Positions 2,079 through 28,204 of a stretch of 64,000 nucleotides of DNA are shown here, piece by piece (positions within the stretch are counted from its first letter, which is position 1; every line of letters starts with the position of its first letter). The position numbers and the translations under genes are program-made. The notes under the pieces were generated by a model. The model ran no database searches. It was not told the origin of the DNA and was given only the letters and a program-made list of their open reading frames with translations. Source of the DNA: Ichthyobacterium seriolicida (GTDB lineage: Bacteria; Bacteroidota; Bacteroidia; Flavobacteriales; Ichthyobacteriaceae); NCBI RefSeq assembly GCF_002369955.1, contig NZ_AP014564.1, positions 1,000,672-1,064,671 of the forward strand, written 5' to 3'.

Positions 2079-4958
2079 ATGTTTAAAAAAAAATATCTTG
2101 TAAAGAGTATTATTTTCTCTTTTGTATTGTTGTCGGCTATTATTTTCTCCTGTGATAAAAAGAAAATTATACAAGACGATTTAAATATATGTATAGAATC
2201 TTTTTCTCTACTTAATTCTGAAAATACTGATAAAAAATTAGGTTCTGATATAACCTGTGATATAGATATTGACAATCATACTATATCATTGAAAGTTCCT
2301 AATGGAGCTATTTTAGAAGGGCTAAAGTTCAGTATAAAAACTTGTGAAGGGTCTAGCATATCTCCTGCTAGTGGACAAGAAGTTAATTTTGAAGTTGTAG
2401 AAGAATCTGCTACTGATGAGGTTTCTGAGGAATCTGCCAAAAAGCCATCTACTCAACGTTATAAAAAAACATTTATTGTTACAGCTAAAGATGGAAAGAC
2501 TCAAGAATATACTGTATATATAACTAAAGAAGCGGCGCCAAAGTTGACTGAGTTTAAAATATCAGCTGATGCTGCTAAAGGAATAAAAACAGAGATATCT
2601 GCTGTCATAACTGATGACACTGATACTGCAACAGGCAAAATATTATTAAAAATTCCTTACAAAGGAGCTATTACTCTAACAGGATTAACACCTGTTATCA
2701 ATGTTCCTGAAGGTTGTACTATAGATCCAGCTGACGGATCAGAAATATCTGAAGATATTAATGTTAAAGAGTTCACTTTAACAAAAACTGATACGGGTTC
2801 TCAAAGGGTTTACACTGTAGAGGTAGTTAAAGGGCCTTATATTGAGTCATTTAAGTTTGCTGCTACTTCTTCCAGCGGAAGTTCTACTAATGCAGGTATA
2901 AGTACTGAAGTAACAGGGGTAATCGATCACATTGTTGGCACTATATCTGTAATAGTTCCTAATGGTGTCACTTTATCTAGTTTAACTCCTACAATTACAG
3001 TGGGGGAGAACACTAAAGCTGAATATATCCCTTCTGCTCAGACAAATTTTAGTTCTAATGTTGAATATACAGTAACATCTTCTAATCCTTCAGCTGCTGA
3101 TTTTACTAAAGTATATACAGTTTCTGTAACTCAAAACGCTGAACCTGCTATATCTGAGTTTAAGTTTTTGAATAGCAATAATGGTAGTAAAAATCTTGTA
3201 GGTGATATTACAGGTGAGATTAATGGCAGCGATATAATTGTTAAAGTTCCTTATAACGCAGAGTTAAATGGATTAACTCCAACTATTACAGCTTCTTCTG
3301 CTTTGGCTGACACTCAAGTATACAGTGGAGATGCTGGACAAGCCGCTATTGCTGCTACTGACTTTAGTAATTCTCATGCAGCAGCTGTGAAATACAGTGC
3401 AGTGGGTCCTGCTGGAGGAAGAAAGGTATATTCTGTAAAAGTTTATAAAGAGCCAAAAATAAATACGTTTAAGTTTACTAGTAGTGTTAATTCATCAGCT
3501 GGGTTTCCTACTAGTCCAACTGAATATGATGGCTCAATTTCAGGCGACGATATAACTATTTTAGTTGCTAATACAGTTAAGGTAACAAATTTAAAAGCTT
3601 CTATTACTGGGGATAATATTAATACTACTAATCCTATAAATATAACTTTTACCTCTACTAGTGATACTTCTCCTTATTCTGCAACTATTGAAGTTCAGAA
3701 TGAACATTTATCATCTTATACTAAAACATACACTGTAACTCTAACTAAAGAAGCAGCTCCAAAATTGACAGAGTTTAAAATATCAGCTGATACTACTAAG
3801 GGTATTCAAAGTGAAGTAACTGGTGATATAACTGATGATGATTCTAATTCTGCTTCTACTGGAACAATAAAATTGAAGTTTGATCATAAAGTTTCTAATC
3901 GTAATACTGATATTGATTTGACAGGATTAACGTATACTAATGAACCTATTGCAGGATGCACTTTAACTCCTGGTACTCCTTTAGCTAGTAACAGTATTGC
4001 TGGTCAAACATTTATTTTAACTAAAGATGCTACGGGGTCCAAAAGAGTTTATGCTGTAACAGCAGTTAAAGGACCGTTTATTAAGTCTTTTAAATTTGGT
4101 ACTGGCAATACTGGCATAAGTTCTGATATAAGTGCAGCAAGTATTGATCATAATACTGGAGCCATAACTATAACAGTTCCTGCTACGGTTAATAAGGATT
4201 TATCATCTGGTACTGATAATAAGGTAAGTCTAACCCCTACAATTGAGTTGGGAGGAGATACTCCTACTATTGTTTCTCCTAATACTGGAGTTTCTACGGA
4301 GTTTACTAGCGGCACCGCTGTTTCGTATACAGTAACAGGTGCAGATGGAATGACAAAAACTTATCAAGTTACAGTAACTAGAACAAAATCAAATCTAGCG
4401 CAGATTACAAAATTTACAATTGATAGCACGAATGGTGATATTACACACCCTGATACTGGTAATGGTGATAAAGGTAGAATAGTTGTGCCTGTAGCTAACC
4501 CTCCAACAGGAACAAAAACTCCTACTATAGAAAAATCAGATTATGCTACTGTAAGTCCAAGTACAGCTCAAAATTTTACTTATGAAAATCCTGTTACATA
4601 TACTCTAACAGCTGAGGATACTAGTACACAAAAAATATATGAAGTTTATATACATGATTCTACTAAAACTATAGCTAGTAGTGATAGTTTAAAACTTGCA
4701 AATAGCAGTAGTGCCGAGATTACTCCAACTTCTAAGGATATTAATGAAACTACCAGGGTTATAACTATTACTGTGCCTGCTAGCACTACCAATCTTAATA
4801 ATTTAACACTTACTTTGACTGGTGCTTCTTCTGGGCTTAGCATAGAGCCTACTGATCCTCAAGATTTTTCTGGTGAAAAAGAAGTAAAATATATTCTTAA
4901 GGAGAGTAGTGATGTAAAGGGGCATTATTGGGTTAAGGTGGTTAAAGGAACCAATTAG
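2079..4958 (+). CDS. Surface lipoprotein with about nine DUF5018-like repeats
   Basis: A 959-residue protein with a lipoprotein signal peptide (hydrophobic run, then AIIFSC, lipid Cys at 25) followed by a K/D-rich stretch that could serve as surface-export signal. The rest is about nine tandem domains of roughly 90-110 residues. Each begins like SFKF, has an xVPxGAxLxxLTPTI core and ends with YTVTAxDGxxxxYTVxVT. This is the pattern of the Bacteroidota DUF5018 beta-sandwich family. Domain 1 carries an acidic insert near residues 108-125. Domains 2-3 and 6-7 resemble each other closely (EAAPKLTEFKISAD twice), so the array grew by internal duplication. A paralog lies at 7433-10111. Function is unknown; a surface binding or adhesion role is an inference. 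Confidence 0.75.
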   Translation: MFKKKYLVKSIIFSFVLLSAIIFSCDKKKIIQDDLNICIESFSLLNSENTDKKLGSDITCDIDIDNHTISLKVPNGAILEGLKFSIKTCEGSSISPASGQEVNFEVVEESATDEVSEESAKKPSTQRYKKTFIVTAKDGKTQEYTVYITKEAAPKLTEFKISADAAKGIKTEISAVITDDTDTATGKILLKIPYKGAITLTGLTPVINVPEGCTIDPADGSEISEDINVKEFTLTKTDTGSQRVYTVEVVKGPYIESFKFAATSSSGSSTNAGISTEVTGVIDHIVGTISVIVPNGVTLSSLTPTITVGENTKAEYIPSAQTNFSSNVEYTVTSSNPSAADFTKVYTVSVTQNAEPAISEFKFLNSNNGSKNLVGDITGEINGSDIIVKVPYNAELNGLTPTITASSALADTQVYSGDAGQAAIAATDFSNSHAAAVKYSAVGPAGGRKVYSVKVYKEPKINTFKFTSSVNSSAGFPTSPTEYDGSISGDDITILVANTVKVTNLKASITGDNINTTNPINITFTSTSDTSPYSATIEVQNEHLSSYTKTYTVTLTKEAAPKLTEFKISADTTKGIQSEVTGDITDDDSNSASTGTIKLKFDHKVSNRNTDIDLTGLTYTNEPIAGCTLTPGTPLASNSIAGQTFILTKDATGSKRVYAVTAVKGPFIKSFKFGTGNTGISSDISAASIDHNTGAITITVPATVNKDLSSGTDNKVSLTPTIELGGDTPTIVSPNTGVSTEFTSGTAVSYTVTGADGMTKTYQVTVTRTKSNLAQITKFTIDSTNGDITHPDTGNGDKGRIVVPVANPPTGTKTPTIEKSDYATVSPSTAQNFTYENPVTYTLTAEDTSTQKIYEVYIHDSTKTIASSDSLKLANSSSAEITPTSKDINETTRVITITVPASTTNLNNLTLTLTGASSGLSIEPTDPQDFSGEKEVKYILKESSDVKGHYWVKVVKGTN

Positions 4959-7432: not shown

Positions 7433-10111
7433 ATGAAGACATTTTCTTTTGTAAAGAGTTTTATTTTCTCTTTTGTATTGTTATCGGCAATTATTTTCTC
7501 TTGTGATAAAAAGAACATTATAGAAGATGATTTAAATGTATGTATAGAATCATTTTCCTTATTGCATTCTGAGAATCAGGAAAAAAATTTAGAGTCTGAT
7601 ATAGACTGTCAGATAAATGCTGAGAATTATACTATATCATTAACAGTTCCTCATACAGCTGTTTTAGATGGCTTAAAGTTTAATATAACACTCTGTGAGG
7701 GGACTACCATATCTCCTGCTAGTGGTGAAGAAGTTAATTTTGAAGTTGTAGAAGAATCTATTGAGAAAGAAGCTACTACTGAAGGGATAGCTGAGGAATC
7801 TACTAAAAAGCCTTCTCCTAAACGTTATAAAAAGGTATTTACCTTAACAAAAGGTGGTAAGGCTCAAGAGTACACTGTCTATATAACTAAAGCTTTAGCT
7901 AGTGATTGTTCTATTAGTTCTTTTAAATTAGAGAAGTCTAAAAATGAAAATAAGATTTTTGCAGATAGAGAAGGTAAAATTACTGAAACTGATGGAGCTA
8001 ATACTATAACATTACACGTTTCTGAATCTGCCACTTTAACTGAGCTAAATCCTACAATAGTTCATACAGGAAGTATTAGTCCAGGAGATCCTACTACTAC
8101 TGAAACTGCCGATTCTGCTGGCGCTAATATTACTACAATTACAGTAAATTATACAGTAACTGCCGCAGATGGAAAGACAACAAAGGTTTATGCGGTAAAA
8201 TATATCAAAGACTTATCTTCCGATAATAAAATTTCTGCATTTTCTTTTATAAAAGATGCCAACGGTAATGTTAATACTGGCTTAAAATTAACTAGGTCTT
8301 CTGCTGATATTGCTAGATCTGGTGATGTTGTAATTGATAACACTAATGGAACTATAAAGGTAAAAGCGTCTACTGCAGCAACCATAACAGCTTTAACTCC
8401 TACTATAATCAAGCATGCTAGTGCTACTATAAGTCCAGCTATTGCAGCTCATGATTATAGCACTAACAATAACCAAGTTTATGCTATTACAGCTGAAGAT
8501 GGTCAAACAAGAGAGTATACCGTTTCTGTTGATAAAAGTTTGTCTAATGCAAAAGAAATAACCTCTTTTACATTTAAACATTCTGTAAATTCTGATAAGA
8601 ATTTTAGTAACACGGATTATTCAGCAGCCAGTATACCTGCCGCTACTGGAGATGATGATGTAACTGTGAATATCGCAAAAATCCCAGCTAGTATTGCAGT
8701 AACAGGCCTTAAACCTACTATAGCAGCTAGTCCTAATGCTACAGTAAATCCAGCAGATGGAGAGGCACAGAATTTCACTAGAGGTACAGAGAAAATTTAC
8801 ACTGTGACGGCTCAAGATGGTACTGCTAGAAAATATAAAGTGACTATTCCTGCATTGGATGCAACAGCGCAGATAACTTCTTTTATAATTAAACAGGCAG
8901 ATCATACTTCTATTAGTCCAAGTATTACAGCAGATATGACTATAACTCCTACATCCAGTGCAGGCGCTCATACAATAGATATAATATTAGATGGAGATGA
9001 TCAGACTACTGTAAATCTTAGTCCTGAAATAGTATTTACTGGTTCTAAAGTAGAGCCAGCATCTAAAGCGCTTACTACATTTACATATGGCACAGCTCAA
9101 ACTTATACTGTAACCGCTGAAAATGGTAATACCAAACAATATAGTGTAACTGTAAAGTCTTCGAATTCTAAGATGAAATCTTTTAAGTTTAAATCTAGTG
9201 ATGGAACTAATCAGAGTACTGGGAAAATTGTTAAAGAAGTAGAGGGTGCTATAAATAGTAATACTGTAACTGTTAAGGTTCCAAATAATGCGGTTCTTAC
9301 TAATTTAACTCCTGAAGTATTAGGAAACAATGGCTCTACAGTTACACTTAAAACAGGAGGAGAACTTGCTAATACAGCGCAAGATTTTAGTAGTGATAAA
9401 ACTTACACTGTTACTGCTCAAGATGGAACTACAAGCGATTACACTGTAACTGTAACTAAAGAAGATGCGCCACAGTTGACAAGCTTTAAAATAGGGGCTA
9501 AGGCTGATAATGGTATTGCAGCTGAGGTAAGTGGTGAAATAACTCAGCCTAGCGGCAGTAGTAATGGCACAATAAAGTTGAGCTTACCTAAGAATAATGA
9601 ACATGAAATTACTTTAACAGGATTAACACCTACTATCGAGCCTAATGCTGATGGATATACTGTAAGTCCAACTAGTGGGACAGCAGTATCTGAAAGTATT
9701 GAAGGTAAAAAAATTACTCTAACAACTACTCTAGGTTCTACCTCAGAATATACTGTAACAGTAGTTAAAGGTCCGTTTATTAAGTCGTTTAAGTTTGTAA
9801 AAGATACTAGTGGTAATAGTGATAAAAATCTAGGTTCTACTGATGTTGATGGGGCAATTGATCATGCTGCTGGTACTATAAAATTAGAAGTACCTAAGGA
9901 TGTGACTATGGATTCGAGTGGTAGTGCTAATACAGTAACCCTAACTCCTACAATTGAGGTTGGAGGAGATACTGCTGCTGTTGATCCTGCTAGCTTAACT
10001 GCTCAGGCTTTTACTCCTAACGGGAGTACTGCTGTTACTTATACAGTAAAAAATTCTACTGATACAACTTTTACTAAAACATATACTGTAACTGTAACTA
10101 AAGCTAGTTAG
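7433..10111 (+). CDS. Surface lipoprotein with about eight DUF5018-like repeats
   Basis: An 892-residue paralog of the protein at 2079-4958. The signal peptide and first domain are nearly the same (FSFVLLSAIIFSC, lipid Cys at 25, then DKKNIIEDD). About eight tandem beta-sandwich domains follow, each ending in a YTVTAxDG...YTVTV pattern. The last two domains (from QLTSFKIGAK and PFIKSFKFVK) match domains 6-7 of the paralog, while the middle domains differ, so the two proteins share ends but differ inside. The first domain has an acidic, Glu-rich insert around residues 105-128. Export to the outer membrane surface is likely from the lipobox and acidic N-terminus; the ligand is unknown. Confidence 0.75.
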   Translation: MKTFSFVKSFIFSFVLLSAIIFSCDKKNIIEDDLNVCIESFSLLHSENQEKNLESDIDCQINAENYTISLTVPHTAVLDGLKFNITLCEGTTISPASGEEVNFEVVEESIEKEATTEGIAEESTKKPSPKRYKKVFTLTKGGKAQEYTVYITKALASDCSISSFKLEKSKNENKIFADREGKITETDGANTITLHVSESATLTELNPTIVHTGSISPGDPTTTETADSAGANITTITVNYTVTAADGKTTKVYAVKYIKDLSSDNKISAFSFIKDANGNVNTGLKLTRSSADIARSGDVVIDNTNGTIKVKASTAATITALTPTIIKHASATISPAIAAHDYSTNNNQVYAITAEDGQTREYTVSVDKSLSNAKEITSFTFKHSVNSDKNFSNTDYSAASIPAATGDDDVTVNIAKIPASIAVTGLKPTIAASPNATVNPADGEAQNFTRGTEKIYTVTAQDGTARKYKVTIPALDATAQITSFIIKQADHTSISPSITADMTITPTSSAGAHTIDIILDGDDQTTVNLSPEIVFTGSKVEPASKALTTFTYGTAQTYTVTAENGNTKQYSVTVKSSNSKMKSFKFKSSDGTNQSTGKIVKEVEGAINSNTVTVKVPNNAVLTNLTPEVLGNNGSTVTLKTGGELANTAQDFSSDKTYTVTAQDGTTSDYTVTVTKEDAPQLTSFKIGAKADNGIAAEVSGEITQPSGSSNGTIKLSLPKNNEHEITLTGLTPTIEPNADGYTVSPTSGTAVSESIEGKKITLTTTLGSTSEYTVTVVKGPFIKSFKFVKDTSGNSDKNLGSTDVDGAIDHAAGTIKLEVPKDVTMDSSGSANTVTLTPTIEVGGDTAAVDPASLTAQAFTPNGSTAVTYTVKNSTDTTFTKTYTVTVTKAS

Positions 10112-10180: not shown

Positions 10181-10218
10181 AAGCTGTCTCAAAACCGAGG
10201 CAGCTTTTTTCTTTTTTT
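10181..10218 (+). terminator. Rho-independent terminator
   Basis: AAGCTGTCT (10181-10189) pairs with AGGCAGCTT (10198-10206) around a CAAAACCG loop, followed by TTTTCTTTTTTT. The end of the T tract supplies the TTAA into which the adjacent MITE inserted. Confidence 0.8.
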
Positions 10219-10220
10219 AA

Positions 10221-10428
10221 CCCAGATTATTCATAGTCATATGAATTGTTCAGTTAAAAATATTGTTTTACTCAGTATTTCGGAGTAATTATCAATCTAA
10301 TTCAGATTATAAATAATGTACTTTAATTTCCCACTTTTGGGCTTTATGTAAAATGGTTATTTTTGGTTAAAGCCCTTTAAAATTAACACTTACACCCAAC
10401 ATTGAAATATAACCGTGAATAATCCAGA
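10221..10428 (+). mobile_element. MITE, subfamily a (208 bp), TTAA-flanked
   Basis: Terminal inverted repeats CCCAGATTATTCATAG (left) and GTGAATAATCCAGA (right), flanked by TTAA at 10217-10220 and 10429-10432. Its termini match the IS1380-type elements at 55099 and 60021. The right 100 or so bases, read in reverse, resemble the left end of that IS. A near copy is at 45593-45801. It has no coding capacity and is presumably moved in trans by the IS transposase. Confidence 0.8.
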
Positions 10429-10599
10429 TTAAATCGATATAATGTCTCTTAAATTTGAAAATACTATATTACTTTTGAGAGCTATAAAAGTAATAGGAGC
10501 TGGTTATGAAATACTATATTTGATTTTTATTTACTGACAAACGCTTGTACTATTAATTGGAAAATACATTACCTTAATATATAATAAAATAACTTGAAA

Positions 10600-11652
10600 A
10601 TGGACGATATCACTATAAAGCCCAATTTAAAAGAAAGATGGGAGACATTTAGAAATCTTAATCCAAATAAGAGAATTAAAGATGCTGCCCAAGAGCTAGG
10701 AGTTAGCGAATTAGAACTATTAGTTACTGAGTGTGGAAACTCTGTAATTAGATTACAGCCTAAATTCAAGGAAATATTAATGGAAATTAAATCCTTAGGA
10801 AAGGTAATGGCATTAACTCGTAATGAGTATTGTGTACATGAGGTAAAAGGGGAATACAAAAATCCTATATTCAAAGATGATAACTTGGGTTTATTTTTAG
10901 GTGAAATAGATCTTAGATTTTTTTTGAATCATTGGCATAGTGTTTTTTCTGTGCATGATAATATGAAAGGGAAGGATTTATATAGTTTTCAATTTTTTTC
11001 TAGTACTGGCAAAGCCCTCCACAAAATATACTTGATGCCAGAGAGTAATATTGATAACTATCACAATTTGGTGAATAAATTTAAAGATGAAAATCAAGAG
11101 GATTATGAAATAGTCACTAAGGTCGAGAAAAATCCTAAAAATGATTTAGATGATCCTAAAATAGACCTAGAACAATTCCATAGAGAATGGAAAGAGATGC
11201 AAGACACACATGAATTCATGTCTATTTGTAGAAAGCATAAATTAAATAAAATACAAGCTTTCAATTTGGCGCCGAGTGAACATTATGCCAAAAAAATTCC
11301 TAATTCTGCAGTTGTTGAAGTAATACAAGAAGTCGCTTCTAAAAGTATACCTGTTATGATTTTTGTAACCAACCCAGGGAATATACAAATCTATACTGGA
11401 GAAATAGAAAAGACTTCTTTTCATAATGAGTGGTTTAATGTACTTGATTCTGATTTCAATTTACATCTAAATGCAGATAAAATATCTCAAGCTTGGGTAG
11501 TTAGGAGGCCATCTGGAAAAGATGGAGAAGTATCAGCTTTAGAAGTTTTTGATGAAGACGAAAATCTAATAGTTCAATTATTTGGTAAGCGAAAAGAAGG
11601 AAGTCCAGAATTACAATCTTGGAAAGAACTATTAATGAAATATACTAAATAG
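10600..11652 (+). CDS. hmuS: Hemin-degrading / hemin transport factor HmuS family
   Basis: A 350-residue cytoplasmic protein of the HmuS/HemS/ChuS family, which binds heme after import and in some members degrades it. It shows the two-fold repeat of the family: LGKVMALTRNEYCVHE, then GEIDLRFFLNHW and HKIYL in the first half; IFVTNPGNIQIYTG, WVVRRPSGKDG and LFGKRKEGSPE in the second. His204 in the DTHEF motif is the likely axial heme ligand and Arg106 in IDLR the likely heme-propionate contact, by analogy with HemS. The ATG at 10600 is preferred over a TTG two codons earlier. A TonB receptor follows after a terminator. A duplicate of the last 72 codons lies at 23205-23423. Confidence 0.88.
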   Translation: MDDITIKPNLKERWETFRNLNPNKRIKDAAQELGVSELELLVTECGNSVIRLQPKFKEILMEIKSLGKVMALTRNEYCVHEVKGEYKNPIFKDDNLGLFLGEIDLRFFLNHWHSVFSVHDNMKGKDLYSFQFFSSTGKALHKIYLMPESNIDNYHNLVNKFKDENQEDYEIVTKVEKNPKNDLDDPKIDLEQFHREWKEMQDTHEFMSICRKHKLNKIQAFNLAPSEHYAKKIPNSAVVEVIQEVASKSIPVMIFVTNPGNIQIYTGEIEKTSFHNEWFNVLDSDFNLHLNADKISQAWVVRRPSGKDGEVSALEVFDEDENLIVQLFGKRKEGSPELQSWKELLMKYTK

Positions 11653-11694
11653 GTATATTCTTTTGAACCAAAAACTAATAACTAAAATCTTAAA

Positions 11695-11726
11695 AGTCGG
11701 AGAATACTTTACTCCGACTGATTTTT
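11695..11726 (+). terminator. Terminator after hmuS
   Basis: AGTCGGAG (11695-11702) pairs with CTCCGACT (11712-11719), followed by GATTTTTCTGTT. The same structure is kept in the duplicated copy at 23466-23497. Confidence 0.75.
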
Positions 11727-11810
11727 CTGTTGGCTAAACTAAGCGAACATTTACCATAAGCAAATTCCCCTCAATCTTAAAATAAAAATAACAAGTAGTT
11801 AACCGCAAAA

Positions 11811-13951
11811 ATGAAAAAATTTAAACTGATATTACTCTTACTTATAAGTTTTAAAACCTTTGCTCAAAACGACAATACTGACGGGGATTCCTCCCAAGGC
11901 GTTGTAAATTTGGAAAGTGTAATTATTTCTGCAAATAAAAAAGATGAACAATTAAGTAATGTTACTGTGCCTGTTACATTGATAACTAGTGATGAAATAG
12001 AGAGGTCAGGAGAGGTGCAACTCATAAATGTATTAAGAGCTACCACAGGGATAAATATTTCATCTGGTCACGTAGAAGGCAATGGAGTTCAATTACAAGG
12101 GCTATCTCCTAAGTATACGTTAATACTAGTAGATGGAGCGCCTATTTTAGGTAATAGTATTTCTTTCAGTCCAGATCTATCTAGCCTTATAGGTACAGAC
12201 AACATAAAACAAATAGAAATAATAAAAGGTCCTACATCTAGCATATACGGATCAGAAGCTATGGCTGGGGTGATAAATATAATCACAAAATCTATATCAA
12301 AAAATAAACTATCTGCATCTTTGAGATATGGTAGATTCAACACAATCAATGTAAATGTACAAGGTCACTACCACAGCGATAATAAATGGGGAATATTCAC
12401 AGATATTAATTTTTTCAAAACAGCTAATTATGTAGCGAACCCTGAAATGAATGGAAAAGAATCTCCATTTGATAATTATGGACTTTTGAATAAGTTTTCA
12501 TACGAGATTACACCAAAATTAAAGGCTAATATAAATTCTAGATTAAATATTAAACATCAAGATTATATATTAAACATCAAGATTATATATCAAGATATAA
12601 AAGGCATATCCAGCCTATATACTACAACCTATTAGATTGGAGCATAACTCCTACAATAACCTATGATATTACAGAAGGATTATCTGCCAAATTAAATATA
12701 AATTCAAATATTTATGGTTATAACGACAAGCAAGGTCCATCGGTTAAATCACCTAAAGGACATGCAGAAAAATTTATGCACGGATCTTTTGAAGGAGAGC
12801 TTTCATTCAGTTATGAACTAAATAATACTGATCATATTATTTCTGGAATAGGATATAACAATCAAAAAATTATAGAATCAGATGAAGAATTGAAAGATAT
12901 CCCTGATTTTAGCAATGGTTTTGTATACGGACAATACAGCACAAATCTATTTGAAAGATTAAATCTGGTATTAGGCGCTAGACTGAATAATCATAAAAGT
13001 TATGGTATGCAGTTTAATCCAAAAGCTTCGTTTAAATTGGACATCACAGATCAGATTAGTGTAAAAGCCTCCATAGGTAGGGGCTTTAGAAGCCCAAACA
13101 TAAAACAATTATACGAAAATTCAATGGCTCCTTGGCATGCATTCATAGGAGTTGCAAAATTAGAAAGAGTGATAGAAGGGTTTATTTCCCAAGGTAGAAT
13201 ATACAGATCTGCTCTTGACAAAGAATATGGTGAGATAATAAAGTACAAAGGGAAATTAAAACCGGAACATTCAATAGGAATAAACGCTGAATTGAGTTAT
13301 AGACCTACAAATTCAATATCTCTACAATTAGAAGTATTTAGAACAGATCTATCTAATATGATAGATGCTACTAGAATTGGTTCTTTAAACCCAAGTCCGA
13401 ATATAATAAGCTATACAAATACAGGTGAAATATTTACTGAGGGAGTTATATTTAACTCAAATTATAATTTAAACGATAATATAACAATATCGGGTGGTTA
13501 TCAATACTTGACAGCCAAGAGTAAGAAAGATTTGGAAAGGTTAAGAAAAAAAGAAATCTTGTCGAAAAAAACACCTTCTGAAGAAGGAACCGTAGTAAAA
13601 GAAGAAAAATACGGAGGATTAAAAGGAAGAGCTAAACACAGTGGAAATGCTAAGATTTTTATAAGAGACATCATGTATGGAATATCTGCTAATATAGTAA
13701 TGCTATATACTGGAAAAATGGGAATGACTCCACGTACTAATTTCAATAATATAATAGATGATGAAAAAGAGTATTCAAAACCGTTTACTTTGGTAAACGC
13801 AGGAATTTCTAAAACATTTCTAGAAGGTAAATTAAAACTTCTGTTAGATGTAGATAATGTATTCGATTACACGCAATATACAGATAGTTATACTATGACT
13901 TATATTCCTGGAATAATTTACAATGTAACGTTGAAATACGAATTACTTTAA
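11811..13951 (+). pseudogene. TonB-dependent hemin-type receptor, frameshifted copy A
   Basis: A copy of the intact 707-residue receptor at 23582-25705. The first frame runs 11811-12635 (signal peptide, plug domain, start of barrel). The remainder continues in another frame to 13951, ending in the same barrel C-terminus (YNVTLKYELL). The cause is visible: a 20-bp unit (ATTAAACATCAAGATTATAT) is present twice in tandem at 12549-12588 and once in the intact copy, shifting the frame. Everything else aligns well, so the inactivation is recent, or the gene could be switchable if the repeat is lost. It sits downstream of hmuS and upstream of a YceI-like lipoprotein gene. Confidence 0.88.
12549..12588 (+). 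repeat. 20-bp tandem duplication that breaks the receptor gene
   Basis: Two exact copies of ATTAAACATCAAGATTATAT at 12549-12568 and 12569-12588. The intact paralog has one. The extra 20 bases (not a multiple of three) cause the frameshift. Confidence 0.9.
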
Positions 13952-14013
13952 ATTAAAATTTAGTCTAGTTTAACAAATAGCATTTCACTTTGAAAACAGT
14001 TTATAAAAAATCT

Positions 14014-14631
14014 ATGAAAAAAATGTCTTCAAAAGCTATACAAATAGCTATTATGAGTCTTTTTGTATCGTGTTTTTCGGATGGTAGTTATGATTCTTTA
14101 AAAGAGCAATACCTTTTGACTTCTGAAAATGTAAAGTTGAAGTGGGCAGCATATAAGACAACTGATAAAATTCCATTATATGGTTCATTTAAAGAGATAT
14201 ATATCTCAGAAAGTAAAAAATCTGATGTCTTGGAGGAGAGCATTAGAAATATGAAATTTAAAATACCTATAAAGTCTTTAAATAGTGGTTATGAAGTTAG
14301 AGATTTACGAATAGTTAGATTTTTCTTTAATTCTATGGCTAATACATCGAATATAGAGGGGCGTGTAAAAGAAGTAACAGAAAATAATATATTATTTCTT
14401 GTAACTCTCAACGATATAGAAAGGGACATTTCTGCTACCTATACCATGACAGAAGATAGTGTATTAGTTATCTCAGCCGAGGTAGATCTTTTAAGATGGA
14501 ATTTATCGTCTTCTATAGAATCTTTAAATACAGAATGTTTGGATTTACATAAAGGTACAGATGGTATAAGTAAATTATGGGATAAGGTAGATATCATAAT
14601 AGAAGTTGATTTGAAAAAGAATCTAGATTAG
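14014..14631 (+). CDS. YceI-like family lipoprotein (copy A)
   Basis: A 205-residue lipoprotein: signal peptide, then SLFVSC (lipid Cys near 19). The body follows the flavobacterial YceI-like pattern: LKWAAYKTTDKIPLYGSFKEI near the N-terminus, then RFFFNSMANTSNIEGRV, VISAEVDLLRWNLSSSIESLN and LHKGTDGISKLWDKVDIIIEV at the end. YceI proteins form a lipocalin-like barrel that binds isoprenoid-type ligands; whether this one binds a lipid or tetrapyrrole is unknown. The ATG at 14014 is chosen because the second copy begins there; the frame extends to a TTG at 13990. It lies 62 bases after the receptor gene, whereas in copy B the two genes overlap. Confidence 0.75.
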   Translation: MKKMSSKAIQIAIMSLFVSCFSDGSYDSLKEQYLLTSENVKLKWAAYKTTDKIPLYGSFKEIYISESKKSDVLEESIRNMKFKIPIKSLNSGYEVRDLRIVRFFFNSMANTSNIEGRVKEVTENNILFLVTLNDIERDISATYTMTEDSVLVISAEVDLLRWNLSSSIESLNTECLDLHKGTDGISKLWDKVDIIIEVDLKKNLD

Positions 14632-14724
14632 AGTAAAAATAAATTTCTTGAAAATTTGACGTATTGATTACTTACAGATCCCATCAACTAGACAAAATAT
14701 TTCAGTGACCATAGAGCTCAGTAA

Positions 14725-14757
14725 GTTTATTTAGAATTAATAAAAATTGTAAATTTG
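14725..14757 (+). promoter_or_regulatory. Putative promoter of the DUF285 lipoprotein gene at 14810
   Basis: GTTTATTTAG at 14725 followed by a -7-like TAAATTTG (14750-14757). The same arrangement precedes the lipoprotein genes at 17518, 26501, 30125 and 41300. Confidence 0.5.
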
Positions 14758-14809
14758 CATTTCAATAGTAATGACTGTCATCAATAGTAATAATTTAAAT
14801 TAAAGTTTT

Positions 14810-16513
14810 ATGAAATTCAAAAGGTTATCATTGTTTTTACTATGTGCAGTTTTATCTTTTAATTCTTGCATTAAAGAGGAGATCGTTGGTGTGAAGAATG
14901 AGGAAGAGGGAAAAAGTGGAAATAAAATATTGTCATTCGAATTAAGAAATATTCCTAGTAGTGTAGATGTATCTACAGATATTAATCACGAGGATTCTTC
15001 TATTTCAATATCTATGAATGGTTTAATGTCCTACTATGATTTAAAGGGCATATCACCTTCTATAAGTGTTTCTAAAGGGGCTGAGATACGTTCTGACGAA
15101 TTGAAAGATTTTATAAATATCGAAAATAACCCTATAACGTATACTGTAATATCTGAGAGTGGTAAGTCGAGGGAGTATAAAGTAAAAATCACTTATGAAT
15201 TAAAGAAATTTATATCAAAATGGGAAGGTAGCAATATGATAAAATTGCCTATATACAAGGGGGGTGATTATGATTTCGTCGTAGATTGGGGAGATGGTTC
15301 AGAAAAAGAAAGAGTTACTTTTTTCGATGATTTAGCTTCTTTACATGAATATGAAACAGATGGCAATTACACTATAACCATCACTGGGAAAATCGAAGGG
15401 TTCAACTTCGGTAAAGTCCAAACTAGTAGCGAAAATATAATAAGCATAGAAGATTGGGGTGATTTAAAGCTCCTAAATAGTGTATATCTACTCAGGCCTG
15501 GTTTTTATACTGGGAGTAATGTTGGGGTTTTTGAAGACTGCACCAAATTAGTAAGTCTGCCATTAGATTCTCCTAATTTAGAGGGAGTTACTGATGTGAC
15601 TAATATGTTTGAGGGCACTACATCTTTTAATGGGGATATTAGTAAATGGGATGTATCAAAAGTTACTAATATGGCTGGTATGTTTAAGAATGCTAAATCA
15701 TTTAATGGAGATATTAGTAAATGGGACGTTAGTAATGTTACTAATATGAGTGGTATGTTTGAAGGGGCTCTATCCTTCAATCAAAATATTGGCCAGTGGA
15801 AAGTAGGTAATGTCACTAATATGTACAATATGTTTTATGCTGGTTATAGAGAAACCTTGATCTTTAATCAAGATATTAGTGGTTGGGATGTAAGTAATGT
15901 TACTAATATGAGTAGTATGTTTGAAGGAGCTTCACATTTTAATCAGAATCTTAATAAGTGGAATGTAAGTAATGTTACCAATATGAGTAGTATGTTTAAA
16001 GAAGCTACGAGTTTCAGTGGAGATATTAGCAATTGGAAAGTAGGTAATGTTACTAATATGTCTAAGATGTTTTCTGGCGGAAGTTTTGGTACTATACCTT
16101 TTAATGGAGATATTACAGAGTGGGACGTTTCAAACGTTACTAATATGATAAGTATGTTTGAGGGAGCCGAAAATTTTAATCAAAATATTGGTAAGTGGAA
16201 TGTAAGCAGTGTTACTAATATGTATGGGATGTTTTTGGGAGCTATAACTTTTAATCAAGATATTAGTGGCTGGAATGTATCAAGAGTTACTAATATGAGA
16301 AATATGTTTTCTGCTTGTTGGCCTAAGGTTTGTGATAAAACAAGCTCTTTTGAACAAGATTTAAGTGGTTGGGATGTTTCAAACGTTACTGAGTGTTCTA
16401 GTTTTTCTAGGAAAGCGCGACAATTCACCAAGAAACCTAATTTTGTCAGTGACTGCAATACTAACTCATCATTTCCTTGGATGGTAAACGAAAATTATAA
16501 TTACGATGATTAA
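14810..16513 (+). CDS. DUF285/BspA-like repeat lipoprotein, class I (567 aa, copy A)
   Basis: Signal peptide with lipobox SFNSC (lipid Cys20), followed by IKEE, which resembles the K-(D/E)2 surface-export signal described for Bacteroidota lipoproteins. Residues about 39-127 form one DUF5018-like domain (YTVISESGKSREYKV). Residues about 134-200 form a PKD-like domain (GGDYDFVVDWGDGSE). From about 238 there are ten copies of a 25-residue DUF285 repeat of the form FNxDIsxWdVSxVTNMsxMF. Such repeats form a leucine-rich-like surface solenoid, known from BspA-type proteins. It is the last gene of the hemin cassette and has a near-identical partner at 26501-28204, from which it differs in patches within the repeats. 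Confidence 0.85.
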   Translation: MKFKRLSLFLLCAVLSFNSCIKEEIVGVKNEEEGKSGNKILSFELRNIPSSVDVSTDINHEDSSISISMNGLMSYYDLKGISPSISVSKGAEIRSDELKDFINIENNPITYTVISESGKSREYKVKITYELKKFISKWEGSNMIKLPIYKGGDYDFVVDWGDGSEKERVTFFDDLASLHEYETDGNYTITITGKIEGFNFGKVQTSSENIISIEDWGDLKLLNSVYLLRPGFYTGSNVGVFEDCTKLVSLPLDSPNLEGVTDVTNMFEGTTSFNGDISKWDVSKVTNMAGMFKNAKSFNGDISKWDVSNVTNMSGMFEGALSFNQNIGQWKVGNVTNMYNMFYAGYRETLIFNQDISGWDVSNVTNMSSMFEGASHFNQNLNKWNVSNVTNMSSMFKEATSFSGDISNWKVGNVTNMSKMFSGGSFGTIPFNGDITEWDVSNVTNMISMFEGAENFNQNIGKWNVSSVTNMYGMFLGAITFNQDISGWNVSRVTNMRNMFSACWPKVCDKTSSFEQDLSGWDVSNVTECSSFSRKARQFTKKPNFVSDCNTNSSFPWMVNENYNYDD

Positions 16514-22965: not shown

Positions 22966-23025
22966 GATGAATTAAGAGTTTATGTTTTAATTTTTAAGAT
23001 ATATTCTAATGAAAGCAAAAGTTTT

Positions 23026-23204
23026 AGGTTAAAAGTATTGTTTTATTGATTATTTCTAAGGAAATATGTATCTAGCTCAGTTTATAAACAATTTATTTTT
23101 ATTCTTCATTTTTAGGGAATATCTAAAGTGATCTAGATTTGGTTACCCCCCTTTAAAATTAACACCTCATATCAAATATTGAAATATAACCATGAATAAT
23201 CTGG
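23026..23204 (+). mobile_element. MITE subfamily c, left end deleted
   Basis: Matches 43068-43279 from about its 50th base to the right end (AATAATCTGG). The left end is missing: AGGTTAAAAGTATTG replaces the longer AGGTT...AGGTTAAAA arrangement seen at 43050-43111, as expected from deletion between two AGGTT copies. Its right end is fused directly to duplicated hmuS sequence. Confidence 0.7.
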
Positions 23205-23423
23205 TTTAATGTACTTGATTCTGATTTTAATTTACATCTAAATGCAGATAAAATATCTCAAGCCTGGGTAGTTAGGAGGCCATCTGGAAAAGATGGAGAA
23301 GTATCAGCTTTAGAAGTTTTTGATGAAGATGAAAATCTAATAGTTCAATTATTTGGTAAGCAAAAAGAAGGAAGTCCAGAATTACAATCTTGGAAAGAAC
23401 TATTAATAAAATATACTAAATAG
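23205..23423 (+). pseudogene. hmuS 3'-end fragment
   Basis: The last 72 codons of hmuS (FNVLDSDFNLHLNADK to the stop) are repeated here with few changes, without the rest of the gene. Homology with 11434-11652 starts at the TTTAATG that abuts the MITE end. The fragment marks the left breakpoint of the 5-kb duplication that carries the receptor, YceI and DUF285 genes. Confidence 0.9.
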
Positions 23424-23465
23424 GTATATTCTTTTGAACAAAAAACTAATAACTAAAATCTTAAA

Positions 23466-23497
23466 AGTCGGAGAATACTTTACTCCGATTGATTTTT
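23466..23497 (+). terminator. Duplicated hmuS terminator
   Basis: AGTCGGAG pairs with CTCCGATT (one G-T), followed by GATTTTTTTG. It is a copy of 11695-11726. Confidence 0.7.
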
Positions 23498-23581
23498 TTG
23501 TTGGCTAAACTAAGCGAACATTTACCATAAGCAAATTTCCCTCAATCTTAAAATAAAAATAACAAGTAATTAACCACAAAA

Positions 23582-25705
23582 ATGAAAAAATTTAAACTGA
23601 TATTACTCTTACTTATAAGTTTTAAAACCTTTGCTCAAAACGACAATACTGACGAAGATTCCTCCCGAGGCGTTGTAAATTTGGAAAGTGTAATTATTTC
23701 TGCAAATAAAAAAGATGAACAATTAAGTAATGTTACTGTGCCTGTTACATTGATAACTAGTGATCAAATAGAGAGGTCAGGAGAGGTGCAACTCATAAAT
23801 GTATTAAGAGCTACCACAGGGATAAATATTTCATCTGGTCACGTAGAAGGCAATGGAATTCAATTGCAAGGGCTATCTCCCAAGTATACATTAATACTAG
23901 TAGATGGAGCCCCTATTTTAGGTAGTAGTATTGCTTACAGTCCAGATCTATCTAGCCTTATAGGTACAGATAACATAAAACAAATAGAAATAATAAAAGG
24001 TCCTACATCTAGCATATACGGATCAGAAGCTATGGCGGGGGTGATAAATATAATCACAAAATCTATATCAAAAAATAAGCAGCTATCTACATCTTTGAGA
24101 TATGGTAGATTTAACACAATCAATGTAAATGTACAAGGTCACTATTACAGGGAGAATAAATACGGAATATACACAGATATTAATTTTTTCAAAACAGCTA
24201 ATTATGTAGCGAACCCTGAAATGAACGGAAAAGAATCTCCATTTGATAATTATGGACTTCTGAATAAGCTTTCATACGAGGTTATACCAAAATTAAAGGC
24301 TAATATAAATTCTAGATTAAATATTAAACATCAAGATTATATATCAAGATATAAAAGGCATATCCAGCCTATATACTACAACCTATTAGATTGGAGCATA
24401 ACGCCTACAATAACTTATGATATTACTGAAGAATTATCTGTTAAATTAAGTATAAATTCAAATATTTATAGCTATAACGACAAGCAAGGTCCATCAGTTA
24501 AATCTCCTAAAGGGCATACAGAAAAATTTACGCACGGATCTTTTGAACGAGAGATTTCATTCAGTTATAAACTAAATAATACTGATCATATTATTTATGG
24601 AATAGGATCCAACAATCAAAGAATCATAGAATCAGATGAAGAATTGAAAGATATCCCTGATTTTAGCAATAGTTTCGTATATGGACAATACAGCACAAAT
24701 CTATTTGAAAGATTAAATCTGGTATTAGGCGCTAGATTTAATAATCATAAAAGTTATGGTATGCAGTTTAATCCAAAAGCTTCTTTTAAATTGGACATCA
24801 CAGAACAGATTAGTTTAAAAGCCTCCATAGGTAGGGGCTTTAGAAGTCCAAGCATAAAACAATTATACGAAAATTCAATGGCTCCTTGGCATGCATTCGT
24901 AGGAGTTGCAAAATTAGAAAGAGTGATAGAAGGGTTTATTTCCCAAGGTAGAATAAACAGATCTGCTCTTGACAAAGAATATGATGAGATAATAAAGTAT
25001 AAAGGGAAATTAAAACCGGAACATTCAATAGGAATAAACGCTGAATTGAGCTATAGACCTACAAATTCAATATCTCTACAATTAGAATTGTTTAGAACAG
25101 ATCTATCTAATATGATAGATGCTACTAGAATTGGTTCTTTAAACCCAAGTCCGAATATAATAAGCTATACAAATACAGGTGAAATATTTACTGAGGGGAT
25201 TATATTTAACTCAAATTATGATTTAAACGATAATATAACAATATCGGGAGGTTATCAATACTTGACCGCCAAGAGTAAGAAAGATTTGGAAAGGTTAAGA
25301 AAAAAAGAAATTTTGTCGAAAAAAACACCTTCTGAAGAAGGAACCGTAGTAAAAGAAGAAAAATACGGAGGATTAAAAGGAAGAGCTAAACACAGTGGAA
25401 ATGCTAAGATTTTTATAAGAGACATCATGTATGGGGTATCTGCTAATATAGTAGCGCAATATACTGGAAAAATAGGAATGACCCCACGTACTAATTTCAA
25501 TAATATAATAGATGATGAAAAAGAGTATTCAAAACCGTTTACTTTAGTAAACGCAGGTATTTCTAAAACATTTCTAGAAGGTAAATTAAAACTTCTGTTA
25601 GATATAGATAATGTATTCGATTACACTCAATATACAGATAGTTATACCATGACTTATATTCCTGGAATAATTTACAATATAACGTTGAAATACAAATTAC
25701 TTTAA
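23582..25705 (+). CDS. TonB-dependent outer-membrane receptor, hemin-type (intact copy B)
   Basis: A 707-residue receptor: signal peptide to about residue 19 (SFKTFAQ), a TonB-box-like LESVIISA at 34-41, a plug domain to about 160 (LILVDGAP, IEIIKGPTSSIYGSEAMAGVINIIT), then a beta-barrel. The FRSPSIKQLY segment resembles the FRAP region of heme receptors. The C-terminus TLKYKLL is barrel-like. Its neighbourhood (hmuS sequence upstream) supports heme or hemoprotein uptake; the substrate is inferred. The stop overlaps the next start (TAATG), so the receptor and YceI lipoprotein are probably translated together. The duplicate at 11811-13951 is frameshifted, so this is probably the only working copy here. 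Confidence 0.88.
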   Translation: MKKFKLILLLLISFKTFAQNDNTDEDSSRGVVNLESVIISANKKDEQLSNVTVPVTLITSDQIERSGEVQLINVLRATTGINISSGHVEGNGIQLQGLSPKYTLILVDGAPILGSSIAYSPDLSSLIGTDNIKQIEIIKGPTSSIYGSEAMAGVINIITKSISKNKQLSTSLRYGRFNTINVNVQGHYYRENKYGIYTDINFFKTANYVANPEMNGKESPFDNYGLLNKLSYEVIPKLKANINSRLNIKHQDYISRYKRHIQPIYYNLLDWSITPTITYDITEELSVKLSINSNIYSYNDKQGPSVKSPKGHTEKFTHGSFEREISFSYKLNNTDHIIYGIGSNNQRIIESDEELKDIPDFSNSFVYGQYSTNLFERLNLVLGARFNNHKSYGMQFNPKASFKLDITEQISLKASIGRGFRSPSIKQLYENSMAPWHAFVGVAKLERVIEGFISQGRINRSALDKEYDEIIKYKGKLKPEHSIGINAELSYRPTNSISLQLELFRTDLSNMIDATRIGSLNPSPNIISYTNTGEIFTEGIIFNSNYDLNDNITISGGYQYLTAKSKKDLERLRKKEILSKKTPSEEGTVVKEEKYGGLKGRAKHSGNAKIFIRDIMYGVSANIVAQYTGKIGMTPRTNFNNIIDDEKEYSKPFTLVNAGISKTFLEGKLKLLLDIDNVFDYTQYTDSYTMTYIPGIIYNITLKYKLL

Positions 25706-26322
25706 TGAAAAAAATGTCTTCAAAAGCTATACAAGTGGCTATTATAAGTCTTTTTGTATCGTGTTTTTCGGATGGTAGTTATGATTCTTTAAAAGAGCAA
25801 TACCTTTTGACTTCTGAAAATGTAAAGTTGAAGTGGGCAGCATATAAGACAACTGATAAAATTCCATTATATGGTTCATTTAAAGAGATATATATCTCAG
25901 AAAGTAAAAAATCTGATGTCTTGGAGGAGAGCATTAGAAATATGAAATTTAAAATACCTATAAAGTCTTTAAATAGTGGTTATGAAGTTAGAGATTTACG
26001 AATAGTTAGATTTTTCTTTAATTCTATGGCTAATACATCGAATATAGAGGGGCGTGTAAAAGAAGTAACAGAAAATAATATATTATTTCTTGTAACTCTC
26101 AACGATATAGAAGGGGACATTTCTGCTACCTATACCATGACAGAAGATAGTGTATTAGTTATCTCAGCTGAGGTAGATCTTTTAAGATGGAATTTATCGT
26201 CTTCTATAGAGTCTTTAAATACAGAATGTTTGGATTTACATAAAGGTACAGATGGTATAAGTAAATTATGGGATAAGGTAGATATCATAATAGAAGTTGA
26301 TTTGAAAAAGAATCTAGATTAG
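25705..26322 (+). CDS. YceI-like family lipoprotein (copy B)
   Basis: 205 residues, nearly identical to the protein at 14014-14631; the differences noticed are I/V and M/I in the signal region and R/G in NDIEGDIS. Lipobox LFVSC, then the YceI-like fold motifs (KTTDKIPLYGSFKEI, LHKGTDGISKLWDKV). The ATG shares its A with the stop codon of the receptor gene, because the 62-base spacer present in copy A is missing. This places the lipoprotein under tight translational coupling to the receptor. Confidence 0.78.
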   Translation: MKKMSSKAIQVAIISLFVSCFSDGSYDSLKEQYLLTSENVKLKWAAYKTTDKIPLYGSFKEIYISESKKSDVLEESIRNMKFKIPIKSLNSGYEVRDLRIVRFFFNSMANTSNIEGRVKEVTENNILFLVTLNDIEGDISATYTMTEDSVLVISAEVDLLRWNLSSSIESLNTECLDLHKGTDGISKLWDKVDIIIEVDLKKNLD

Positions 26323-26415
26323 AGTAAAAATAAATTTCTTGAAAATTTGACGTATTGATTACTTACAGATCCCATCAACTAGATAAAATATTTCAGTGAC
26401 CATAGAACTCAGTAA

Positions 26416-26448
26416 GTTTATTTAGAATTAATAAAAATTGTAAATTTG
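26416..26448 (+). promoter_or_regulatory. Putative promoter of the DUF285 lipoprotein gene at 26501
   Basis: GTTTATTTAG then TAAATTTG at 26441-26448. It is a duplicate of 14725-14757. Confidence 0.5.
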
Positions 26449-26500
26449 CATTTCAATAGTAATGACTGTCATCAATAGTAATAATTTAAATTAAAGTTTT

Positions 26501-28204
26501 ATGAAATTCAAAAGGTTATCATTGTTTTTACTATGTGCAGTTTTATCTTTTAATTCTTGCATTAAAGAGGAGATCGTTGGTGTGAAGAATGAGGAAGAGG
26601 GAAAAAGTGGAAATAAAATATTGTCATTCGAATTAAGAAATATTCCTAGTAGTGTAGATGTATCTACAGATATTAATCACGAGGATTCTTCTATTTCAAT
26701 ATCTATGAATGGTTTAATATCCTACTATGATTTAAAGGGCATATCACCTTCTATAAGTGTTTCTAAAGGGGCTGAGATACGTTCTGACGAATTGAAAGAT
26801 TTTATAAATATCGAAAATAACCCTATAACGTATACTGTAATATCTGAGAGTGGTAAGTCGAGGGAGTATAAAGTAAAAATCACTTATGAATTAAAGAAAT
26901 TTATATCAAAATGGGAAGGTAGCAATATGATAAAATTACCTATATACAAGGGGGGTGATTATGATTTCGTCGTAGATTGGGGAGATGGTTCAGAAAAAGA
27001 AAGAGTTACTTCTTTCGATGATTTAGCTTCTTTACATGAATATGAAACAGATGGCAGTTACACTATAACCATCACTGGGAAAATCGAAGGTTTCAGCTTC
27101 GGTAAAGTTGAAACTAGTAGCGAAAATATAATAAACATAGAAGATTGGGGTGATTTAAAGCTCCTAAATAGTGCATATCTACGCAGGAGCGAATTTTATG
27201 CTGGGTATGTTGGGGTTTTTGAAGACTGCACCAAATTAGTAAGTCTGCCATTAGATTCTCCTAATTTAGAAGGAGTTACTGATGTGACTAATATGTTTGA
27301 GGGCACTACATCTTTTAATGGGGATATTAGTAAATGGGATGTATCAAAAGTTACTAATATGATTGGTATGTTTAAGAATGCTAAATCATTTAATGGAGAT
27401 ATTAGTAAATGGGACGTTAGTAATGTTACTAATATGAGTGGTATGTTTGAAGATGCTGTATCCTTCAATCAAAATATTGGCGGATGGAACGTAGGGAATG
27501 TCACTGATATGTCGAGTATGTTTTATGGTGGTTATAAAGCTAAAATAGCCATGATCTTTAATCAAGATATTAGTGGTTGGGATGTAAGTAATGTTACTAA
27601 TATGAGTAGTATGTTTGAAAGGGCTTCGCATTTTAATCAGAATCTTAATAAGTGGAATGTAGGTAATGTTACTAGTATGGGTAGTATGTTTAAAGAAGCT
27701 ACGAGTTTTAGTGGAGATATTAGCAATTGGAAAGTGGGCAATGTTACTAATATGTCTAAGATGTTTTCTGGCGGAAGTTTTGGTACTATACCTTTTAATG
27801 GAGATATTACAGAGTGGGATGTTTCAAACGTTACTGATATGTCAAATATGTTTGAGGGAGCCGAAAATTTTAATCAAAATATTGGTGGGTGGAATGTAGG
27901 TAGTGTTACTAATATGTTTGCTATGTTTTGTGGAGCTATAACTTTTAATCAAGATATTAGTGGCTGGGATGTATCAAGAGTTACTAATATGAGAATTATG
28001 TTTTCTGGTTGTTGGCCTAGGGTTTGTGATAAAACAAGCTCTTTTGAACAAGATTTAAGTGGTTGGGATGTTTCAAATGTTACTGAGTGTTCTAGTTTTT
28101 CTAGGAAAGCGCCAAAAATCACCGAGGATAAGAAACCTAATTTTGTCAGTAACTGCAATACTAACTCATTGTATTATTGGATGAAAGGCTATGACGACGA
28201 TTAG
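26501..28204 (+). CDS. DUF285/BspA-like repeat lipoprotein, class I (567 aa, copy B)
   Basis: Same layout as the protein at 14810: lipobox SFNSC, IKEE, one DUF5018-like domain, PKD-like domain, ten DUF285 repeats. The first 200 residues are almost identical between copies. Differences cluster inside the solenoid, for example GWNVGNVTDMSSMFYGGYKAKIAM here versus QWKVGNVTNMYNMFYAGYRET in copy A, and in the C-terminal tail. That pattern suggests exchange of repeat segments with other array members rather than uniform drift. It is the last gene of the duplicated hemin cassette. Confidence 0.85.
   Translation: MKFKRLSLFLLCAVLSFNSCIKEEIVGVKNEEEGKSGNKILSFELRNIPSSVDVSTDINHEDSSISISMNGLISYYDLKGISPSISVSKGAEIRSDELKDFINIENNPITYTVISESGKSREYKVKITYELKKFISKWEGSNMIKLPIYKGGDYDFVVDWGDGSEKERVTSFDDLASLHEYETDGSYTITITGKIEGFSFGKVETSSENIINIEDWGDLKLLNSAYLRRSEFYAGYVGVFEDCTKLVSLPLDSPNLEGVTDVTNMFEGTTSFNGDISKWDVSKVTNMIGMFKNAKSFNGDISKWDVSNVTNMSGMFEDAVSFNQNIGGWNVGNVTDMSSMFYGGYKAKIAMIFNQDISGWDVSNVTNMSSMFERASHFNQNLNKWNVGNVTSMGSMFKEATSFSGDISNWKVGNVTNMSKMFSGGSFGTIPFNGDITEWDVSNVTDMSNMFEGAENFNQNIGGWNVGSVTNMFAMFCGAITFNQDISGWDVSRVTNMRIMFSGCWPRVCDKTSSFEQDLSGWDVSNVTECSSFSRKAPKITEDKKPNFVSNCNTNSLYYWMKGYDDD

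Follow-up and report, generated by a model that had tools for sequence, protein, structure and literature searches.

A candidate heme-uptake locus of Ichthyobacterium seriolicida with a predicted YceI-fold lipoprotein in the position of HmuY

The hemS gene, the receptor and the lipoprotein behind it

Ichthyobacterium seriolicida JBKA-6T is a pathogen that causes hemolytic jaundice of yellowtail (PMC5331501). We analysed a 64,000-nucleotide stretch of its genome (the window; positions 1,000,672–1,064,671 of the 1,921,407-base single contig) in which a hemS-type gene, a gene for a TonB-dependent receptor, a gene for a YceI-like lipoprotein and a gene for a DUF285 lipoprotein follow one another on the plus strand. 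An initial annotation had described the four as a hemin cassette. Their order was confirmed and all four could be identified, but the receptor gene in this interval is frameshifted, and the intact copy lies at 23582–25705. The I. seriolicida literature found for TonB or hemin (PMC9804302) contained no study of the hemS–receptor–YceI locus. For comparison, relatives of the receptor, of HemS and of the YceI lipoprotein were sought among 296 genomes of the order Flavobacteriales.

The hemS/chuS-type gene (10603–11652, plus strand) is intact and is predicted to encode a cytosolic heme-handling protein, with two stretches each that match the Pfam families HemS (5e-64, 214 bits) and ChuX_HutX (1.5e-53, 181 bits). 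In the initial annotation it was called ‘hmuS’, the Yersinia-type name. The HmuS of Bacteroidetes is a different protein, a CobN-like de-chelatase according to PMC12583661, and by its sequence the product of 10603–11652 is of the HemS/ChuX type and not of that kind. HemS was found in 43 of the 296 genomes, I. seriolicida included. In three genomes of another family (L124, L125 and L126) hemS lies directly 5′ of the receptor gene, and in L125 it is itself preceded by genes for a binding protein (PBP), a FecCD permease and an ABC ATPase, all checked with Pfam. The I. seriolicida genome carries a further, broken hemS paralogue (about 1894535–1895578; L134:8535–9579), which contains stops, has 84% DNA identity to the intact gene and adjoins a DUF285 gene; Ka/Ks between the two is 0.086. 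Between hemS and the receptor gene there is a hairpin followed by a T-rich run (11695–11719, plus strand; −12.6 kcal/mol, z −2.65), which resembles a terminator or an attenuator and is present in both copies of the interval.

The receptor gene next to hemS (copy A, 11811–13951, plus strand) is out of frame because a short in-gene tandem duplication splits the reading frame, leaving one open piece for the plug (11811–12635) and one for the barrel (12776–13951). Copy B (23582–25705, plus strand) is intact and encodes 707 amino acids (aa). With copy B as the query and a threshold of E ≤ 1e-60, 32 places were matched in 31 other genomes, places in the own genome being excluded, and all 32 were mapped. 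HmuY is the first or second gene 3′ of the receptor in 31 of them; the remaining place (L234) ends at a contig edge. Twelve HmuY proteins were scanned with Pfam, where 11 scored above the HmuY cut-off and that of L127 reached 26.4 vs. 27, and a profile built from these twelve called HmuY in 19 of 20 further loci, with E values from 4e-47 to 2e-84. In the reverse search, the receptor of L136 ranked copy B at the top (273 bits), the split copy A next and then a lone paralogue (84 bits). When 12 HmuY-paired receptors were aligned, the sole histidine conserved in at least 10 of them turned out to be present in all 12; copy B has it as H604. Copy B also keeps 48 of the 67 invariant columns, the lone paralogue 42. 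This paralogue is an intact 770-aa receptor, 44% identical to copy B and encoded on the minus strand at 1238329–1240641 (L133:8329–10641); it has a tyrosine at the invariant-histidine column, and no HmuY or YceI match was found in L133.

By homology and by reciprocal best match with HmuY-paired receptors, copy B belongs to the HmuR-type group. It falls by score into no curated NCBIfam class, and sequence searches of solved structures gave a mixed set of relatives, so that the assignment of a substrate rests on the HmuY pairing and on hemS. Orthology and synteny support a heme role of hemS and the receptor, and we infer heme as the receptor’s substrate. Many of the mapped loci have an extra gene for a protein of about 160–250 aa between the receptor and HmuY (several of L226–L243, and L140); in L140 its product has 185 aa and contains an internal repeat.

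In I. seriolicida the gene in this position encodes a lipoprotein of 205 aa (copy A, 14014–14631; copy B, 25705–26322; both on the plus strand), and the two copies are 98.5% identical as proteins. In copy B the start codon and the receptor’s stop codon share 1 base, and in copy A the gap is 62 bases; HmuY starts 1 to 59 bases past the receptor in the 11 loci measured. As single sequences, the window copies score 20.3 and 17.3 bits with Pfam YceI, under the cut-off of 23.7, though 49 of 58 aligned relatives match this family at E ≤ 0.001 and a profile of the relatives finds solved YceI chains (E 6e-8). The structural model (pLDDT 84.1, pTM 0.77) aligns with 3hpe and 3q34 at Z 16.2 over 151–153 residues (rmsd 2.6–2.9). 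Profile membership, which also covers copy A, and the modelled barrel, obtained for copy B, agree with the YceI-like lipoprotein of the initial annotation, and the product is predicted to have the YceI fold.

The lipoprotein hits only YceI in Pfam, and the profile of the 12 HmuY proteins gave no match among the open reading frames of the window at E ≤ 10. PF14064 (HmuY) had no match in the I. seriolicida genome at E ≤ 1, a threshold that a more divergent HmuY could escape. HmuY structures were absent among the VIA-align matches listed for the YceI model, which excludes nothing. Since no HmuY was found and a YceI-type gene fills its slot, the locus fails the definition of an HmuR–HmuY pair; it can still work like one.

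A third YceI lipoprotein gene lies at 1,168,288 (L075), adjoining a transposase-like fragment. Its product is 65% identical to the receptor-linked copies, with a Ka/Ks of about 0.3 against them, and in 55 of 56 comparisons the relatives are closer to it than to copy B, which makes the receptor-linked copies look specialised. Residues Y63 and M80 occur in all three copies and are rare in relatives; they were considered as lineage-specific ligands and rejected, as nothing ties them to the pocket.

YceI relatives were found in 43 of the 296 genomes, I. seriolicida included, and their surroundings were surveyed twice. For the first survey, 38 loci were fetched from Flavobacteriales genomes other than I. 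seriolicida, 37 of which had a recognisable YceI gene. The second covered the loci of 80 of the 419 relatives found in named genomes, with YceI recognised in 79; flanks of up to 6 kb per side were included, less at contig ends, and in 65 of the 80 loci neither flank was shorter than 2.5 kb. An FtsH–LUD–CdsA group is present in 33 of the 79 loci, with Psd in 31 and ACBP in 30, the latter directly 5′ of YceI in 28. In Flavobacteriaceae, YceI lipoprotein genes end a recurring FtsH–LUD–CdsA–Psd–ACBP group (Pfam names were obtained from L037; the group was seen in the named loci). This setting suggests lipid metabolism as the ordinary context of YceI and hints at a lipid role of this YceI branch. 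Judged from titles and the beginnings of abstracts, the literature searched describes no heme role of YceI; in Riemerella, iron limitation raises a YceI-like gene by 1.16 log2 (PMC5429918).

The DUF285 array and the tandem duplication

The fourth gene (14810–16513, plus strand; copy B, 26501–28204, plus strand) encodes a repeat lipoprotein, probably located at the surface. A Pfam DUF285 match (2e-101) and TIGR02167 (PARCEL) repeats in an NCBIfam scan place the protein of 14810–16513 in the DUF285/PARCEL group, and copy B likewise carries Pfam DUF285 repeats. The initial annotation spoke of a solenoid, which the regular repeat of about 25 residues and the model make plausible, but no solved structure matched the repeat part: in a fold search the DUF285 model hit no solenoid, and its single match at E ≤ 0.001 covered a short stretch of a protein from Bacteroides. 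Genome-wide there are 78 DUF285 matches, 77 of which lie in 15 clusters, one weak row under the family cut-off being excluded. Two large lipoproteins encoded at 2079–4958 and 7433–10111 (959 and 892 aa) have apparent tandem repeats that resemble the N-terminal domain of the DUF285 proteins, and no NCBIfam family scored above its cut-off for either.

A promoter-like region 5′ of the DUF285 gene (14726–14757, plus strand) consists of a palindromic element, TTTATTTAGAATTAATAAA, and a TAAATTTG box, the latter assigned by a promoter consensus. The sequence TTTATTTAGAATNAATAAA occurs five times in the window vs. a shuffle mean of 0.14, and a search that tolerated up to one mismatch found no further copy in the genome. 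All five occurrences lie 79 to about 92 bases 5′ of DUF285 genes, and in the three upstream regions inspected (before 14810, 26501 and 41288) a TAnnTTTG box comes next; the five copies are related by duplication and are therefore not independent. The element was not found before hemS, the receptor or YceI, and the upstream regions of hemS, the receptor and DUF285 showed no common element. A scan with the promoter consensus gave a number of sites no higher than in shuffles, and the hairpin at 11695–11719 was not among them. Between YceI and the DUF285 gene there is a gap of 178 bases. From the promoter-like element of the DUF285 gene and the hairpin between hemS and the receptor, three transcription units appear likely, namely hemS, receptor–YceI and the DUF285 arrays. 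The DUF285 gene thus probably heads a separately promoted surface-protein array and takes no part in the heme pathway; copy B and the upstream element were likewise judged to lie outside the heme locus. Elsewhere, DUF285 beside homologous receptors or YceI relatives amounted to two weak labels near receptors (L127 and L244), the first of which, beside HmuY, traces to a shared N-terminal domain and not to DUF285 repeats.

Comparison of the window with itself (blastn) aligned 11431–13958 with 23202–25711 (95%) and 14014–16469 with 25705–28169 (96%); additional blocks, reaching to 43054, pair the DUF285 genes that follow. The second unit (unit B) starts with a 3′ remnant of hemS (23202–23423, plus strand; 95% by blastn and matched in the HemS search). 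At the duplication junction the remnant is fused to the end of an interspersed intergenic repeat (23019–23201), a relative of which lies at 10217–10448; both repeats match one stretch of L133, and the repeat end and hemS have 8–10 bases in common. One tandem event with its left break inside hemS (about 11431) carried the receptor, YceI and the whole DUF285 array. The statement of the initial annotation that the last three genes were duplicated together is true but incomplete, as the unit begins inside hemS and includes the downstream DUF285 genes. Because a single event copied them all, the shared duplication says nothing about whether receptor, YceI and DUF285 work together, and it was discarded as evidence for a functional trio. 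Unit B also contains a DUF285 gene split into two open pieces (35391–37196) and a degraded relative (28665–29253) of two 432-aa transposase-like genes, which lie in opposite orientation at 55305–56603 and 60117–61415 amid repeat-rich genes for secreted proteins.

Besides the tandem copies, hemS, the receptor and YceI have one diverged paralogue each (Ks 0.9, 0.99 and 0.7), scattered at about 1.89, 1.24 and 1.17 Mb. They may represent an older copy of the cassette, but Ks is high and the loci are unlinked. Two of the three old loci lie within 2 kb of DUF285 genes (the broken hemS at 429 bases, YceI at 1.9 kb), with a post hoc chance of about 0.012, an observation in favour of either an old association or shared recombination hot spots.

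Interpretation of the locus

With a probability of roughly 45%, we read the region as a reduced and rewired flavobacterial hemS–hmuR heme-uptake locus in which the YceI lipoprotein stands in HmuY’s place and would bind heme. The intact receptor (copy B) would bring heme through the outer membrane. Predicted to be transcribed together with the receptor and to be anchored in that membrane, the YceI lipoprotein would take up heme in its barrel pocket, or escort heme together with a lipid, and pass it to the receptor, so performing HmuY’s job with an unrelated fold. HemS would be the cytosolic acceptor of heme, and the DUF285 lipoprotein a separately expressed surface-repeat protein outside the pathway. 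Heme auxotrophy is not supported, as the heme synthesis markers ferrochelatase and ALAD are present in I. seriolicida, and the purpose of the locus would instead be to supply iron. The initial annotation had seen YceI as the receptor’s partner, and this part gains unexpected support from the HmuY position of the gene, the handover of heme being putative. That YceI replaced HmuY by non-homologous substitution as a dedicated hemophore or heme-lipid chaperone of an HmuR-type receptor, which would be the first heme role of a YceI fold in the literature searched, we consider rather unlikely. If YceI does act as the receptor’s partner, this lipid-pocket family, for which few roles are known, would be drawn into nutrient piracy, and unrelated folds would be shown to serve as partners of HmuR-type receptors. 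If YceI is not the partner, the locus still shows that joint duplication should not be read as a sign of shared function, and the DUF285 array is still set apart from the heme genes.

Several observations weigh against the rewired heme-uptake locus. The receptor was found within two genes of YceI in none of the 37 loci of the first survey, with a weak receptor match four genes 5′ of YceI in L045, and receptor, hemS, HmuY and DUF285 matches were found in none of the 80 loci of the second (80 of 419 relatives). I. seriolicida is thus the one genome in which YceI was seen linked to the receptor, and a conserved linkage was rejected on these counts; of the cassette conservation in related genomes envisaged initially, the hemS–receptor pair recurs in the three genomes named above, and the YceI–receptor pair was not found in the loci surveyed. 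No second Ichthyobacteriaceae genome was among the genomes listed of the 296, so that the family is represented by one member. No FecCD/HmuU-type heme permease was found in the I. seriolicida genome, where the only FecCD matches are weak and fall within an ABC operon that looks to be of the Mn/Zn type. The conserved residues C175 and H179 of the lipoprotein are common to the whole YceI family and not particular to I. seriolicida. Finally, repeats and transposase pieces abound in the region, so the adjacency could be accidental, and the 62-base gap in copy A vs. the overlap in copy B marks the receptor–YceI junction as labile.

A quite plausible alternative is that YceI is an ordinary lipid-binding lipoprotein without a part in heme uptake, placed by rearrangement behind a receptor that works alone, as some heme receptors do. 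Its relatives elsewhere stand beside the FtsH–LUD–CdsA–Psd–ACBP group or other genes and not beside a receptor, transposase pieces and interspersed repeats flank the locus, the third YceI gene also has a transposase-like neighbour, and copy A of YceI is intact despite its broken receptor. This explanation has to contend with the exact HmuY position of the gene on the same strand, overlapping the receptor in copy B, with the failure to detect HmuY in the genome by PF14064, and with the greater closeness of the third YceI to the ordinary family, by which the receptor-linked copies look specialised. Heme uptake might instead be in the course of being lost, with receptor copy A, the hemS paralogue and hmuTUV gone or broken and the rest residual. 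The frameshift in copy A, the stops in the hemS paralogue and the missing FecCD heme permease would fit such decay, and ferrochelatase and ALAD would make uptake dispensable for heme itself; yet hemS is intact and under strong constraint against its paralogue, receptor copy B is intact and the YceI copies are nearly identical, and we regard decay as improbable.

The pathway proposed in the initial annotation had three parts, with the DUF285 protein capturing a heme carrier, YceI passing heme on and the receptor importing it. Adjacency in both copies speaks for it, as does the closeness of two of the three old paralogue loci to DUF285 genes with the post hoc chance given above. It is opposed by the spread of DUF285 genes over 15 clusters, by the promoter-like element of the DUF285 gene, by an upstream element whose five genomic copies all precede DUF285 genes and which was not found before hemS, the receptor or YceI, by the 178-base gap after YceI, and by the scarcity of DUF285 near receptors outside I. 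seriolicida, where one of the two weak labels derives from another domain. We therefore consider this pathway highly improbable, and the role of DUF285 in capturing a heme carrier was not upheld.

Comparison with known systems

In Yersinia and other Proteobacteria, hemS/hmuRSTUV loci encode a HemS-type heme protein beside a TonB receptor. The I. seriolicida locus differs from this type in that no HmuU-type permease was detected in the genome and in that an extra YceI-fold lipoprotein is predicted. With hmuYRSTUV of Bacteroides, as described in PMC12583661, it shares the logic of a receptor and a lipoprotein hemophore; the HmuS there is CobN-like, whereas that of I. seriolicida is of the HemS/ChuX type, and neither HmuY nor an HmuU-type permease was found in its genome. 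The YceI/polyisoprenoid-binding family (3hpe, 3q34, 1wub, 1y0g) has the same predicted fold, with Z of about 16, but the I. seriolicida protein is a lipoprotein encoded directly behind a TonB receptor. Like the PARCEL/DUF285 surface repeat proteins (PMC2996958), the DUF285 proteins of I. seriolicida carry DUF285 and TIGR02167 repeats and form an expanded lipoprotein family; their one tie to heme in this genome is that they adjoin the heme locus.

The nearest characterised case is HfpR–HfpY of Flavobacterium psychrophilum, in which HfpY is HmuY-related, co-transcribed and binds heme (PMC9331221). There, as here, the gene for the partner, or candidate partner, lies downstream of a TonB receptor gene in a flavobacterial fish pathogen. 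The partner in F. psychrophilum is of the HmuY family with heme binding shown, whereas the slot in I. seriolicida holds a predicted YceI-fold lipoprotein, and the logic of the two loci may be the same, carried out in I. seriolicida with an unrelated fold.

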